Below, one piece after another: positions 27,473 through 33,120 of a stretch of DNA of 33,120 nucleotides (position 1 is the stretch's first letter; each line of letters begins with the position of its first letter). The notes beneath the pieces are model-generated. The model saw nothing but the letters and a program-made list of their open reading frames with translations. It searched no databases and had not been told where the DNA came from. Position numbers and translations under genes: made by a program. The DNA is from Balneolaceae bacterium (GTDB taxonomy: Bacteria; Bacteroidota; Rhodothermia; Balneolales; Balneolaceae), in the NCBI GenBank assembly GCA_020832415.1, contig JAFIES010000031.1:1-33120 (forward strand). Direction: 5' to 3'.

Positions 27473-28630
27473 ATGAAAAACCCACTCTCTTCAGATTTTG
27501 TCATTGGATTTTTAGGCGCAGGACAACTCGCACGAATGTCGGCATTGCAGGCTTTTCGATATGGAATGCAGGTTGCCGTTTTCTCCGATCGTCCGGAGAA
27601 TGAACCTGTTCAATTCATGACGCCTCACTCTGTCTCCGGCTCATTTGATGATGTGGAATCGATGCTTGATTTCGCTAAAAAATGTGATGTGATTACTCTT
27701 GAAAATGAGTTTATTGACTCCACTGTACTTGAGAAACTCCGGGAAAGATCCGGAACACCCATCTTTCCATCACCTGAAAGTTTCAGATTGATTGAAAATA
27801 AATTGATTGAGAAACAGACATTCGAAGCCGCGGGGATTCCTGTAACACCTTATAAGCTGATCAGAAAAAAAGAAGACATCGTTCAGTTTGGTGAAGAATA
27901 TGGCTGGCCCTATCTGCTTAAATCATCAAAAGGCGGGTATGATGGTTACGGCAATGAAACAGTGAAAAATGCAGAGGACGCTGAGCATGCATTCAAAAAA
28001 CTTGGCGGAGAAAAGGGGCATGATATTTTGGCTGAAGCATTCGCAGATTTCACTCATGAACTTGCTGTTCAGGTAGCCCGTAATGAAACAGGTCATGTTG
28101 TTTACCCCTGCTGTGAAACTGTTCAGAAAAATCACATCTGTGTGGCTGTAAAGTCGCCAGCGCCGGTATCAGAAAACATCCAAAAGCAGGCGCAAGATCT
28201 TGCTCTTAAAGCCACCGAGGCCATTGATGGAAAAGGTATTTTCGCTTTTGAATTTTTTCTTACTACAGATGGAAGGTTACTTCTTAATGAATCGGCTCCA
28301 AGGCCTCACAATTCCGGACACTACACCATTGAGGGGTGTATTACGTCTCAGTTTGAGAACCATGTGCGTGCTGTTTGCGGCCTGCCGCTTGGGAGTTCAG
28401 AAATGATTCGTCCGGCAGCAGTTATGATCAATCTTTTGGGAACGCATAACCGTAATGCAGTGGTGGAAAATGCAACGGACGGAATGATTGAAACGGATAC
28501 CCATTTGCACTCCTACGGAAAACTTGAAAGTAAACCCGGGCGGAAAATGGCTCATTTTACCATGCTGGGAGATGATCTCGAAATAACATACCGCCGTGCA
28601 ACAGAACTGACCAATTCCATAGAGATTTAG
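27473..28630 (+). CDS. purK: N5-carboxyaminoimidazole ribonucleotide synthase
   Basis: Converts AIR, bicarbonate and ATP to N5-CAIR in purine synthesis. 385 residues, close to the usual 350-390. The N-terminal pre-ATP-grasp domain begins VIGFLGAGQLARMSALQAFRYG. The ATP-grasp part includes PYLLKSSKGGYDGYGNE, and the family hallmarks FAFEFFLTTDGRLLLNESAPRPHNSGHYTIEGC with MINLLG downstream are complete. purE, its usual partner, is not adjacent. Its stop codon overlaps the stop of the convergent prsW gene by 4 nt, so there is no space for a terminator between them. Confidence 0.95.
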   Translation: MKNPLSSDFVIGFLGAGQLARMSALQAFRYGMQVAVFSDRPENEPVQFMTPHSVSGSFDDVESMLDFAKKCDVITLENEFIDSTVLEKLRERSGTPIFPSPESFRLIENKLIEKQTFEAAGIPVTPYKLIRKKEDIVQFGEEYGWPYLLKSSKGGYDGYGNETVKNAEDAEHAFKKLGGEKGHDILAEAFADFTHELAVQVARNETGHVVYPCCETVQKNHICVAVKSPAPVSENIQKQAQDLALKATEAIDGKGIFAFEFFLTTDGRLLLNESAPRPHNSGHYTIEGCITSQFENHVRAVCGLPLGSSEMIRPAAVMINLLGTHNRNAVVENATDGMIETDTHLHSYGKLESKPGRKMAHFTMLGDDLEITYRRATELTNSIEI

Positions 28631-29664
28631 ATTGACTGATCTTTCCCTGAACTTTGATTTTTTTGCATCATGGAAAGCTGCCATAAATCGGTGTTATTCA
28701 GCTTTAGAAGTGGCTGCATGGCAAGTTTTCCTGTTTTTCCAATTTGCTTTTCGAGGTAGTTCAATTCAGAAAATTGTGCTTCAATCTCGGGGTCGGGAGG
28801 CAGATCAAAGCCGCTCTCCTTCATAATTAATATTCCTTTCGCTTTGATTGATAGTTCCAGGTAGATCCTTAGATAGCAGATAATATCACCCACAATTGCC
28901 GGTGTGAATTTATTTTGTATCGAGCTTAGATATTGCCCCAGCCGGGTTTCAGAAATATTACCGGCCATGAGAAGCCTCAGTATCTCCATATCTGAATCGA
29001 GGCCGGTACCCAGCCAGTTTCGGGTATTCTGCTCACTCTGTTTAAAAATCATGATAAAAATCGGTGGAAGAAACAGAAGAATAAGCAATGCTGATGTTAG
29101 TGGAGGCAGAATAAACATGTTAAATGCTGCATGAAGTACGATGGCTGCAAACAAACCGGGCATAAAAATGAGTAAATCCGGCCACTCTTTACGGTCTGAT
29201 AAATCTTTTGATATCACCGCGGCAATTGCCACAGTTCCGCCATGCATAATAGCCGTTCCAAATCCGCGCACAAACCATGTGAGCAGACCTGCATCGGTGA
29301 GCATATTCATGTAGTAGATGTTTTCAATGATTGCAAAACCGGCACCGACAGCAAACCCCAGAATTGCAGCATCCACCATAAAACCAACCTTTCGTGCTCT
29401 TATAAGGTACAAGATGAATAGAATTTTAAGTATCTCTTCAGAAACAGGAGCTACATATCGTGAAAATGAGACGATATCTATTTCCAAATGGCTGATTAAA
29501 CCTGAATTGACAAAAATTGCTGCAAATGCTGCTGAAAACCCAATCATTATAGCTGTAGCAACCTGCTTTATTTTTACCAGCTGGTAACTATCCATCACCT
29601 TCATGAACAGAAGAAAGAACAGTATGGGTAAAAAAGCGATGGCAATTTCAGCTGCTGTCTGCAT
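28627..29664 (-). CDS. PrsW-family intramembrane metalloprotease with long C-terminal extension
   Basis: 345 residues with about seven to eight membrane helices in the first 210. Family motifs are all visible: PVSEEILK with the glutamate pair E76/E77, FAIIEN with E114, GTAIMHGG with H131, and LHAAFN with H178. In Bacillus subtilis PrsW makes the first cut of an anti-sigma factor; many relatives have other substrates. The C-terminal about 130 residues are cytosolic, helical and not part of the PrsW core. The gene begins 19 nt after the peptidase-propeller-barrel gene, so the two form an operon. No sigma/anti-sigma pair is adjacent. Confidence 0.88.
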   Translation of the reverse strand: MQTAAEIAIAFLPILFFLLFMKVMDSYQLVKIKQVATAIMIGFSAAFAAIFVNSGLISHLEIDIVSFSRYVAPVSEEILKILFILYLIRARKVGFMVDAAILGFAVGAGFAIIENIYYMNMLTDAGLLTWFVRGFGTAIMHGGTVAIAAVISKDLSDRKEWPDLLIFMPGLFAAIVLHAAFNMFILPPLTSALLILLFLPPIFIMIFKQSEQNTRNWLGTGLDSDMEILRLLMAGNISETRLGQYLSSIQNKFTPAIVGDIICYLRIYLELSIKAKGILIMKESGFDLPPDPEIEAQFSELNYLEKQIGKTGKLAMQPLLKLNNTDLWQLSMMQKNQSSGKDQSI

Positions 29665-29683: not shown

Positions 29684-32647
29684 TTACCTCATTAATCTTA
29701 GTGATATCATCACTTCATCACTTCTCTCACCCGTTATATCATTCCAGGCGGAAGCATATCCGGCTGAAAACGTAGATTGAAGAATTGAGAACATCACAAG
29801 GCGAATATCCAGCTGAGCACCAACATTATAATATCTTTCCCGAAATTCATCACTGTCGAGATTAGTCACCAGACCGGTTGAAAAGAGACTGAATTGTGCC
29901 CAGTTTGCATAGAGATTCATAAATCCCGCACGCCGAAATCTGATTGGTGGTAAAATCCATTCAGCCATTAATTTGGTGTAGTTGGTACCTCCTGCTTCGT
30001 TCAGTTCCGTGCCGGGGAGTGAGTAAAATGACCGATATCGCCGGCTCGGCTGATAATCGATCCAGTTATTGCCAAACCCGCCGAAGTAGAAATTTCCAAG
30101 TGGTTCTCTTCTGGGTGAGAACGAGATACCTGCCGAAGATCGAATCCAGAAAGATGAGTGGTTTATCGGCAGGGCAAATCCGTAATCGAGGTTTTGATTG
30201 ATCCGCGGAAACAGCCTCCCCTCCACCAGATTATTCGAACTGTAGAGATCCCACATAATTCCTTTTTCATGATCAACCGCACCCAGTGAAAAGAGTGTTG
30301 ATCGATAACTTAAACGGGCATTTACACTCAAAAAACTACTGAACGAAGTAAGGATATTCTGAAAATCAGGCAGCCTTTCCATTCCACCATAATATGCTGT
30401 GGTAATATTGAGATCCATATTTCGCGGCACCTCATAAATCAGGTTTTTATTATAGCTTAACCCGACTGAATAGCCCTTACGGCTGGTTTTTGTAGGGCCA
30501 AACAGATCATAAAAATCTGCCGCATTGTAGTTGGCAAAAAGTCGCCATGATGGCAGCTGATAGCTGAATGAGGCGTGAAATTGCTCATCATTTGGCACAT
30601 TTGTGTGCGGAGACCATGATGCTGAAATGCTCATACTATGAAGACGAAGCAGGTCATTAAAATCTGCCCTCATTCCTCCAGCTACATAATCTTTATACCC
30701 CTGAACTACAGGATAGGCCGAACTGAATTGAAGATTGCTGAATGATGAGTAATCAGACTGACTGATAATCAACGTATCAACATCGATGGTGGCTGGTGAA
30801 GGAGGTGCAAGCATCAGATCGATCACCATCGGGTGAGTTTCTACAATTTCCTGGCCCAAAAACCGAATAGCGCTAACCCTCTCAACGGGTTCATTGGGAA
30901 TTTTTACAGGTAAAAAACCCTCCCCTGTGTATTCAAATGCAATTAGAGAATCCTGCCATACAGGTATGGGTTTGAAAAAGCCTGTCTCAGCATTGGTGAG
31001 CCATCTTATCTCTTCACTCTCAAGTTCATAACGTACAATGTTCGAAACACCACTATAATACGTTGAACCAAAAATAAAGTCGCCATCGGGCGAGAACGTA
31101 AATCCTGCAGGAGAACTTTCTGCAAAATCGAAAATTTCCCGGGGATTGAATTTGCCGGCAAGCAGTTCTTCAGTCTCCATCATCATTAACTTTTGGTACC
31201 CGCTAACATCTGCTATAGCCGCAGTGAGTAGTTTCCCATCAGGCGACAGATCAATATCAAAGATATCTTCCCCATATGGCATGGAATGAATTCTGTTCCA
31301 TTCGGTATAGGGGTAAGGAATTCGAACGATGGATACAATTCCGTTATAGTGGCGCACACCCCAAAGAGATTTATCAATCGGGTTGAATGCCAGATCTCCG
31401 GTTCGAACATTCCTGATCAGCCGCTGACTTTGACCTGTTTCAACATTAACTGAATACAGATTTCGCCAGCCGTTATTATCATTTGTGTAGAAAAGAGTTG
31501 ATGTCCCCGGGTCATAAGCGAGTGAACTCACAAAATAGAGTGCAGGTCCTTTGATATCCACGAGCCTGCGCATAGACCCATCGTTTGGGTTGATGATGGC
31601 AATGTGAGCTACTTGACCCGGATAGGCAATTGCAGCGAAAATCCGGTCATTCTCCTCATCATAAATAGCCCTGGAAACTCCGCCTAATGGTAAATTTGTG
31701 ATTGGTTTTCCTTCTGTTATCGGGTTTGATCTTATACGTTCAAGATTTGCCTTCTGCCACTCATTTTCCCACTCAATCCATTTCGACCATTCATTATCGA
31801 GGGAAGTGCCATATACATTTTTAAACTGGCGTGAAAAATAGCGCTTACTATCATCCGACCGTGCCGTCCATTCGATCAGCTTATCAGGCCCGTACTGCAG
31901 AGCCAGATACGACATGAACCTGGTACCGTACATATAAGAGTGTGCCCCCACCTGAAAGTCGATCGTAGTGCCCTCCGATTCAAGCCCAACAGCATCATAA
32001 ATATATGCCTCATCACGTACCATCGTTCGGAACATCATTTCGTCGTAAGCTCCCATCACCCGGCCAATTCCACCAGACATCCAGGTGGTTAAAAATTCTG
32101 CAATACCCTCGTGGTACCATCGGGGTGAATATCTGCGGGGTGTGGTCATGTATCCGTAAATCATGGATATCGGATCACTTTGTGCGGGGTCTACTTTGCC
32201 CATAAACAGATTTCTGTAAAAGCGGTCAGATCGTGAAGCTTTATCCAATGCTACAATGTGAACCAGTTCGTGATTGGCCAGAACATTAATTCTCTCATTG
32301 GCGGGATTGGTTTCGTATGCGTAATGGAATGGTGCAATGCCCATGAATACTACATTTTGAGGAACAGCAGATGCACCGGCATTCCCAAAATCGCCAAAAT
32401 CCTGCATAATAACAGTAATCTGCTCGGATGGCTCATAATTAAAAAGTGCCCGATGGAAATTGAGAGCATTGGTATAGCTGCGAATTGTGTGATTAAGCAG
32501 GTACTCGTGCCCGAAATCGTAGTAGATCAGATTAAAATCTTCGGTTTGTACCGATTTAAACTGAGCCTGTACAGGTTGTTGATACAGAAAAAAGGACAAA
32601 AAACCAGTTAGAATTATACCGGCATATCGAATGGAAGTGAATGGCAT
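29684..32647 (-). CDS. Secreted HExxH peptidase-like domain + beta-propeller + outer-membrane barrel fusion
   Basis: 987 residues with a signal peptide (about 1-29, ending PVQAQF). The first domain (about 30-330) has a gluzincin zinc site: HELVH at 126-130 and HEGIAEF around 179-185, giving H126, E127, H130 and third ligand E180, as in peptidase-MA-type folds. From about 335 to 640 there are repeated TolB/WD40-like propeller blades (SLAYDPGTSTLFYTND, DIDLSPDGKLLTAAIAD, FTFSPDGDFIFGSTYY). The last third (about 655-987) alternates aromatic strands and turns in the manner of an outer-membrane barrel (FGGFGNNWIDYQPSRRYRSF). Each part is recognisable; the whole is annotated in Bacteroidota as a Tol-type or hypothetical protein. 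The prsW gene follows after 19 nt. Substrate unknown. Confidence 0.8.
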   Translation of the reverse strand: MPFTSIRYAGIILTGFLSFFLYQQPVQAQFKSVQTEDFNLIYYDFGHEYLLNHTIRSYTNALNFHRALFNYEPSEQITVIMQDFGDFGNAGASAVPQNVVFMGIAPFHYAYETNPANERINVLANHELVHIVALDKASRSDRFYRNLFMGKVDPAQSDPISMIYGYMTTPRRYSPRWYHEGIAEFLTTWMSGGIGRVMGAYDEMMFRTMVRDEAYIYDAVGLESEGTTIDFQVGAHSYMYGTRFMSYLALQYGPDKLIEWTARSDDSKRYFSRQFKNVYGTSLDNEWSKWIEWENEWQKANLERIRSNPITEGKPITNLPLGGVSRAIYDEENDRIFAAIAYPGQVAHIAIINPNDGSMRRLVDIKGPALYFVSSLAYDPGTSTLFYTNDNNGWRNLYSVNVETGQSQRLIRNVRTGDLAFNPIDKSLWGVRHYNGIVSIVRIPYPYTEWNRIHSMPYGEDIFDIDLSPDGKLLTAAIADVSGYQKLMMMETEELLAGKFNPREIFDFAESSPAGFTFSPDGDFIFGSTYYSGVSNIVRYELESEEIRWLTNAETGFFKPIPVWQDSLIAFEYTGEGFLPVKIPNEPVERVSAIRFLGQEIVETHPMVIDLMLAPPSPATIDVDTLIISQSDYSSFSNLQFSSAYPVVQGYKDYVAGGMRADFNDLLRLHSMSISASWSPHTNVPNDEQFHASFSYQLPSWRLFANYNAADFYDLFGPTKTSRKGYSVGLSYNKNLIYEVPRNMDLNITTAYYGGMERLPDFQNILTSFSSFLSVNARLSYRSTLFSLGAVDHEKGIMWDLYSSNNLVEGRLFPRINQNLDYGFALPINHSSFWIRSSAGISFSPRREPLGNFYFGGFGNNWIDYQPSRRYRSFYSLPGTELNEAGGTNYTKLMAEWILPPIRFRRAGFMNLYANWAQFSLFSTGLVTNLDSDEFRERYYNVGAQLDIRLVMFSILQSTFSAGYASAWNDITGERSDEVMISLRLMR

Positions 32648-32713: not shown

Positions 32714-32743
32714 AAATACCCCGGACTTATACCCGGGGTATTT
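32714..32743 (-). terminator. Intrinsic terminator after the nonapeptide-repeat gene
   Basis: Perfect 11-bp inverted repeat AAATACCCCGG (32714-32724) and CCGGGGTATTT (32733-32743) with an 8-nt loop. Read on the minus strand it is followed by a run of T (the A tract 32711-32716). It lies 27 nt behind the stop of the repeat protein and ends its transcript, separating it from the peptidase gene. Confidence 0.88.
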
Positions 32744-32769: not shown

Positions 32770-33120
32770 TTATCTGCTTTGCAGATTGAAAGCTTCCCTG
32801 TTCATTAGCTCAAAAAATGCAGGTGAATTCATCATTGTGAGGAAATTGGGATTATTTGCAAGTTCCAGGAATGAAGCGTTATTAGCTAATTCATTAAATG
32901 ATGGATTTGCAGCCAGTTCAGCAAACGATGGGTTTGCGGCCATTTCATTGAATGATGGGTTAGCAGCCAGCTCAGCAAACGATGGATTAGCAGCCAGTCG
33001 GGCAAACGATGGGTTTACAGCCAGTTCCATGAACGATGGATTTGCGGCCAGCTCAGCAAACGATGGATTCGCGGCCAGTCGGGCAAACGATGGGTTTGCA
33101 GCAAGCTCCATAAAGGCAGG
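32770..33120 (-). CDS. Nonapeptide-repeat protein, C-terminal part (5' truncated by window edge)
   Basis: The frame is open to the right edge and continues upstream of the in-frame ATG at 33111 (the edge reads PAFMEL, itself repeat), so the true start lies outside. Twelve complete 9-residue units are present, consensus ELAANPSFA, plus a fraction of another at the edge. The first eight are nearly identical; the last four diverge (LELANNPNF, LTMMNSPAF, FELMNREAF) and the protein ends NLQSR. Each unit has Asn-Pro as a likely helix N-cap, then Phe and Leu three to four residues apart, so a stack of short amphipathic helices is plausible. No catalytic residue, signal or membrane segment is visible in this part. 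I do not recognise the family; a loose resemblance to STI1/DP-type NP motifs is noted without claim. Confidence 0.7.
   Translation of the reverse strand, partial: PAFMELAANPSFARLAANPSFAELAANPSFMELAVNPSFARLAANPSFAELAANPSFNEMAANPSFAELAANPSFNELANNASFLELANNPNFLTMMNSPAFFELMNREAFNLQSR

Follow-up and report, generated by a model that had tools for sequence, protein, structure and literature searches.

What protein do the nine-residue repeats at the end of a Balneolaceae contig belong to, and what might such a chain do in the cell? The window, by which we mean the whole stretch of 33,120 nucleotides that was analysed (positions 1 to 33,120 of contig JAFIES010000031.1, C86 below), breaks off inside the gene. 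We therefore looked for its missing part, for the genes around it and for its counterparts in other genomes.

The repeat gene across two contigs

The minus-strand open reading frame at the end of the window encodes 116 amino acids and stays open up to the contig end. After one partial unit, its array consists of 12 adjoining nonapeptides in strict register: NPSFARLAA, NPSFAELAA, NPSFMELAV, NPSFARLAA, NPSFAELAA, NPSFNEMAA, NPSFAELAA, NPSFNELAN, NASFLELAN, NPNFLTMMN, SPAFFELMN and REAFNLQSR. Identity at an offset of nine residues was 0.667, far above 2000 shuffles of the array (mean 0.124, maximum 0.234), and reached 0.646 and 0.656 at offsets of 18 and 27. At the DNA level, TRF reported a 27-bp period with 7.7 copies and a 74% match. 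The original prediction had counted at least twelve adjacent units in a gene that leaves the window, and both points were borne out, the window end being the end of the contig. It had also described an invariant NPSF core that decays at the C-terminal end only. Phenylalanine alone is constant in 12/12 units, with NPSF in 8/12, and the first units after the linker on the second contig are degenerate too.

The repeats had been considered unassignable to pentapeptide, RTX, TPR, HEAT or Sel1 families, and indeed no Pfam model of these repeats was listed as a match at E values up to 1; an NCBIfam TPR-end model stayed below its cutoff (30.5 vs 32). Matches to Plasmodium_HRP, MoCo_extend_TAT, ALTTAQ, DUF826 and CbiG_mid were rejected, as they vary with the unit and look compositional. 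The sole match in a PDB sequence search with the repeats was coagulation factor V (E 2.7e-6), whose B-domain contains tandem nine-residue units. Protein and context are unrelated, and the likeness is most likely convergent and compositional.

A second contig of the same genome (C56, locus L006) opens with the same repeats as the window end and carries the 5′ part of the gene (Table 1). Its part of the protein begins MKQEIIDSIQAEIDGENSP and continues through a hydrophobic segment at about residues 104–123 and a linker into further nonapeptides. C86 ends in 59 nt that recur unchanged at C56:143-201, and both contigs read this overlap in the same frame. In a genome of the same genus (G004), one unbroken 541-codon gene has both ends, including the C-terminus seen in the window (NSPAFFELMNR...), and lies before the orthologue of the window’s 987-aa gene, 91% identical. 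The overlap in a shared frame, together with this unbroken gene, makes the join well supported. The contig extension that had been proposed yielded the 5′ end of the gene and an N-terminal anti-sigma-like domain with a membrane helix. A broken gene or decaying fragment is ruled out by the open frame on C56, which is intact just upstream of the window, by the same frame in the overlap and by intact orthologues; no described family spans the whole protein. Over C56:1-142, the array continues with a different sequence and stops after EANPTIG. This stretch is probably an assembly branch or a second or strain allele, since it comes after the 59 nt common to both contigs and does not have the C-terminus of G004 and the window.

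Table 1. Features of the repeat gene and its 3′ neighbours, in window positions unless a locus is named
Feature	Position	Strand	Remark
PrsW-family intramembrane protease, last cluster gene	28627..29664	-	PF13367 E 5.9e-21
987-aa protein, constant neighbour of the repeat gene	29684..32647	-	no Pfam family
Terminator-like hairpin between repeat gene and 987-aa gene	32714..32743	-	13-bp stem and T-rich tail; consensus match only
Nonapeptide-repeat gene, C-terminal part, 12 units	32770..33120	-	stop codon at 32770-32772
Repeat gene, 5′ part: anti-sigma domain, membrane helix, linker, more units	L006 1284 to about 202	-	

Protein architecture and gene neighbourhood

The complete protein comprises an N-terminal RsiW-shaped domain, one membrane helix, a conserved linker (QP..DV.GTIG..VERAERYR..Q) and the nonapeptides, which number 16–46 per protein and 27–46 in Balneolota fusions. 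We hold this anatomy, from anti-sigma-like domain to repeats, with high confidence. The membrane helix, the only one between the N-terminal domain and the repeats, is a hydrophobic segment recognised from sequence and prediction. The juxtamembrane linker is the best-conserved part and is common to stand-alone repeat proteins.

AlphaFold modelled the protein with a mean pLDDT of 61 and a pTM of 0.36 from 16 sequences, values at which the global shape is not reliable. Locally, the model contains three confident N-terminal helices, a membrane helix predicted at residues 104–123 and one 7-residue helix per nonapeptide (pLDDT mostly 62–74), which supports the earlier suggestion of a solenoid of very short Asn-Pro-capped helices. 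In a fold search, RsiW of the SigW–RsiW complex was the top row for the N-terminal domain, matching model residues 1–61 at Z 7.5 and 1.9 Å over 59 residues, a score below 8 obtained with a predicted fold. The ZAS zinc motif HxxxCxxC is absent from the aligned N-termini; anti-sigma factors outside the ZAS subclass do not require it. An ECF sigma factor gene lies directly upstream of the repeat gene on C56, as it does in almost every orthologous locus. We infer that residues 1 to about 60 form a cytoplasmic, zinc-less, RsiW-like anti-sigma domain that would hold the adjacent ECF sigma factor. The repeats may then be the extracytoplasmic (periplasmic) domain of a single-pass inner-membrane partner of that factor, an assignment to which we give slightly less than an even chance. 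Their own fold search returned no significant natural match, which does not make the fold new. Weak matches were to TAL-type solenoids and designed repeats; the nearest, the de novo helical repeats 8g8i and 8eoz, scored without significance and are artificial, with longer helices than here.

The cluster runs in the order RsbW-like HATPase, STAS protein, ECF sigma factor, repeat protein, 987-aa protein and PrsW. Sequence recognition rather than a profile search gave the names HATPase and STAS; that of the sigma factor comes from Pfam Sigma70_r2/r4, and the PrsW of the window scores 75.3 bits with PF13367 against a cutoff of 23.5. A terminator-like hairpin lies between the repeat gene and the 987-aa gene, whose transcription may therefore start at a separate promoter or be subject to attenuation.

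The 987-aa protein combines an N-terminal hydrophobic segment, a metallopeptidase-like motif HELVH...WYHEG(I)AE, a TolB-type beta-propeller at about residues 310–590 and C-terminal strands compatible with an outer-membrane barrel. Its HExxH...E motif is kept in all aligned members. The propeller is modelled confidently and the protease and barrel parts poorly, so that these two assignments rest on the motif and the strand pattern, and the outer-membrane site is presumed. The propeller resembles that of TolB of the Tol-Pal system (Z about 22.7, 3.1 Å over 243 residues) and many other propellers equally. Unlike in TolB, the propeller is joined to C-terminal strands and a region with HExxH, and the protein lies far below the family cutoff (TIGR02800, 16.1 bits vs 343.15). 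None of four cluster proteins matched PADLOC’s anti-phage defence models. In the open-licence literature we found no description of the nonapeptide repeat, the cluster or an internal start in an anti-sigma gene, and the cluster and the repeat protein are apparently undescribed.

Divergent genes next to the cluster (L006:3108-6193) encode a Ser/Thr kinase with a TPR-like C-terminus and another STAS protein; their homologues are found at the same place in G004 (L039) and G017 (L048).

Homologous loci, unit turnover and a putative nested start

The cluster was found in Balneolota, other Bacteroidota sensu GTDB, Gemmatimonadota and Gammaproteobacteria. Almost all Balneolota loci preserve its gene order, which recurs with variations elsewhere (gemmatimonadote L055; gammaproteobacteria L054 and L187). 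An ECF sigma factor directly upstream, and PrsW directly 3′ of the 987-aa gene, occur in nearly all Balneolota loci and likewise in gammaproteobacteria (L054, L140, L167, L168) and a gemmatimonadote (L055, L141). In a split form (L054, L062, L063), one gene encodes the repeat protein and another an anti-sigma-like protein that is equipped with a membrane helix and an extracytoplasmic part of its own.

Three tiers of homologues of the 987-aa protein can be told apart. Tier 1, at about 39% identity or higher, is mostly accompanied by the sigma factor, the repeat protein and PrsW. In tier 2 (about 31–33%), sigma factor and PrsW are not alongside; the gene upstream codes for a protein with a signal peptide, in which the same motif VE.A.RYR..Q precedes repeats of 15 or 16 residues, such as SGSQLDELGSKYGWVR in 16 copies. 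Tier 3 (about 22–26%) has ordinary, unrelated neighbours. A clear upstream tandem repeat was present in 23 of the 29 close-homologue loci with a visible upstream gene (self-match 0.38–1.0) and in 0/15 distant-homologue loci (best self-match 0.36). The close loci without a clear repeat were L115, L118, L120, L189 and L190, with L122 partly masked; in L115, L118 and L120 the partner protein is non-repetitive. In a maximum-likelihood tree of the 987-aa protein, the 15/16-mer class forms one supported clade and the gammaproteobacterial members another. The absence of sigma factor and PrsW beside the 16-mer class argues that the core pair of repeat protein and 987-aa protein also works without the circuit, and the linker, which tier-2 proteins share in the absence of both genes, more likely serves the 987-aa protein than PrsW.

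Several loci depart from these patterns or illustrate them further. Five tier-2 loci (L123:4244-5203, L131:629-1348, L130:4520-5089, L128:4515-5000 and L124:5462-5938) carry VE.A.RYR..Q with 6–16 near-identical 16-residue units, near-identical even in DNA (0.96) in some. Two genomes of the same class (L137:2322-5421, L139:176-3100) have the cluster without repeat protein and 987-aa protein, in the order HATPase, STAS, sigma factor, short anti-sigma-like protein and directly a PrsW-looking protein. In G011, of the same genus as the source genome, the cluster ends after an 84-aa anti-sigma-like stub (L135:2358-4060). The three genes that normally follow, for the repeat protein, the 987-aa protein and PrsW, are missing here, and the locus looks like a remnant.

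The unit itself changes from lineage to lineage. We found NPSFAELAA, SPDFSRLMA, SADFNRLLA, REPAFTELM, DARFAELAK, VEDFRNMLA, SEALREALN, NPAYRELSA and HPQALQAFAQ; the predicted unit ELAANPSFA is a real repeat and one lineage version among many. Nonapeptides within one array share 0.24–0.79 identity. In regular arrays, amino-acid identity among copies comes near that of the nucleotides or exceeds it, and roughly every second codon difference is synonymous, which indicates that the units are old and kept by selection at the protein level. Between species, identity was 94% for the neighbour against 67% for the repeats in one pair, and 81% against 38% in another; across phyla, the 987-aa neighbour remains 45–90% identical while the repeat sequence changes. 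In four species the part after the linker has an equal length of 307 aa. From the sequences, turnover combined with constant length is what a spacer or tether would show, and is no proof of one. Behind the same anchor and linker, L186:726-2309 (minus strand) carries another periodic array (EQRLNNIESRLNIP.../RTAPATDQ), which suggests that even the type of repeat is exchangeable.

Most fused genes contain an internal ATG with a conserved Shine-Dalgarno (SD) sequence where stand-alone repeat proteins start. This codon, M94, is nearly invariant in fused genes and has AAGGAGG, ACGGAGG or GCGGAGG upstream of it at a suitable spacing. Over 20 genes, the mean energy of the anti-SD duplex was −8.4 kcal/mol at M94 vs −2.5 kcal/mol at the annotated gene start (Wilcoxon p 1.4e-4), and a strong internal SD was present in 5/7 fused genes tested outside Balneolota. 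GGAGG is missing at the internal start in 8/20 representative fused genes. In the other 12, the residue before Glu is K, T, A, R or Q and that after it E, G, A or V, while the nucleotides are constant. Given codon usage and taking the genes as independent, the joint probability of keeping GGAGG in all 12 is about 1e-12, a figure that exaggerates the case, as the genes share ancestry and the motif was the reason for their choice. Met 1 of a stand-alone gammaproteobacterial repeat protein aligns to M94, in a profile that included that sequence. Initiation at M94 would produce a repeat protein without the anti-sigma domain, such as split-gene lineages make from a gene of their own.

A candidate envelope-sensing circuit and its rivals

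RsiW is a substrate of PrsW (PMC3498285). As in the SigW–RsiW–PrsW system of B. subtilis, an ECF sigma factor gene, an RsiW-shaped domain on a membrane protein and a PrsW-family protease occur together here. The present system differs in an anti-sigma domain without zinc ligands, a long nonapeptide array outside, an internal start and additional genes for an RsbW-like ATPase, a STAS protein and the 987-aa HExxH/propeller protein. In the circuit that we propose, the anti-sigma domain would hold the ECF sigma factor encoded just upstream, and the repeat chain in the periplasm would act as a spacer, tether or sensor engaging the neighbouring HExxH/TolB-propeller protein, probably in the outer membrane. 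If envelope damage ended this engagement or cut the chain, PrsW might make the site-1 cut near the membrane, after which a site-2 protease would free the sigma factor. That the protein serves at the envelope as a sensor or tether, linked by PrsW to an ECF sigma factor, seems to us nearly an even bet. The gene order and its conservation, the anatomy of the repeats, the selection on the units at the protein level and the conserved internal SD are observations, and the anti-sigma fold, the chain of short helices and the propeller are predictions. For the mechanism, in which sigma binding, contact with the neighbour, cutting by PrsW and the tether or sensor role are inferred, our confidence is a little lower.

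The repeats could instead form a periplasmic STI1-like chaperone or sensor, in which Asn-Pro-capped helices with Phe, Leu and Met would make up a groove for exposed hydrophobic segments, such as those of misfolded outer-membrane proteins, and occupancy of the groove would trigger the sigma factor. The two parts of the protein in this genome score 47.6 and 34.5 bits with PF17830 (STI1-HOP_DP; gathering threshold 29.1), and the DARFAEL array of L063 scores 33.5. One STI1 domain is described as having six helices, a Met-rich hydrophobic groove that binds transmembrane segments and prolines at the inter-helix turns (PMC13083928), and the window repeats, with their NP turns and F, L and M residues, resemble this, as they do the STI1 of ubiquilin in having Asn-Pro or Asp-Pro turns between very short helices and hydrophobic residues. 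The STI1-like flavour noted at the outset is reflected in a score above the gathering threshold, but this score sums partial matches, the best stretch covering 21/55 positions, and membership in the family is tentative. STI1 is moreover a closed domain of about six helices (PMC13083928), whereas 16–46 near-uniform units are found here and NP is not kept in homologous arrays. The SEALREALN array (L054), which lacks NP, has no STI1 match, L066 reaches only 18.8 bits, below the cutoff, and no STI1 chain was listed among the PDB structural matches of the repeat protein. Fast turnover of the units is also unexpected of a conserved binding groove, and we regard this explanation, though a serious rival in view of its Pfam score, as unlikely.

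Somewhat less probable still, the repeat protein could be a polymer that is secreted or displayed on the surface, or a polyprotein that the HExxH neighbour cuts into repeated peptides, with the sigma factor merely controlling production. The fully kept metallopeptidase-like motif next door would fit, as would the 16-mer class, with a signal peptide rather than an anchor and near-identical units ending in Arg or Lys; lineage-specific repeat sequences are likewise seen in surface proteins. In most of the sigma-linked class, however, the repeats are fused to or lie behind a membrane helix, and in Balneolota they follow the anti-sigma domain; the divergent nonapeptides of one array would not yield one peptide. 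Tandem arrays expand easily and the units differ strongly among lineages, so a neutral expansion at the gene end without a role was also weighed. It is very improbable given the open frames in complete orthologues, the share of synonymous changes in regular arrays, the equal lengths between species and the recurrence of repeats beside the same partner across phyla.

Returning to the envelope circuit, its regulatory half is of a known kind, comprising an ECF sigma factor, an anti-sigma factor and PrsW. The sensed part is an extracytoplasmic domain of tandem repeats that can vary freely in sequence, and it is apparently undescribed. We tentatively propose an envelope system, spread across phyla, that pairs an outer-membrane protease/propeller protein with a membrane-anchored repeat chain. 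The state of the chain would be read via an ECF sigma factor and PrsW, and the repeat protein would be made in two forms, one of them lacking the anti-sigma domain, from nested in-frame starts. With a similarly cautious degree of belief, the unit of this system (9, 10, 12, 15, 16 or 18 residues, or none) may be renewed lineage by lineage, with no change in architecture and linker. Three ideas can be put to the test in this system: that an envelope sensor may work mechanically or by length, that a gene embedded by fusion may retain its start site, and that a natural helical repeat can be as short as nine residues.
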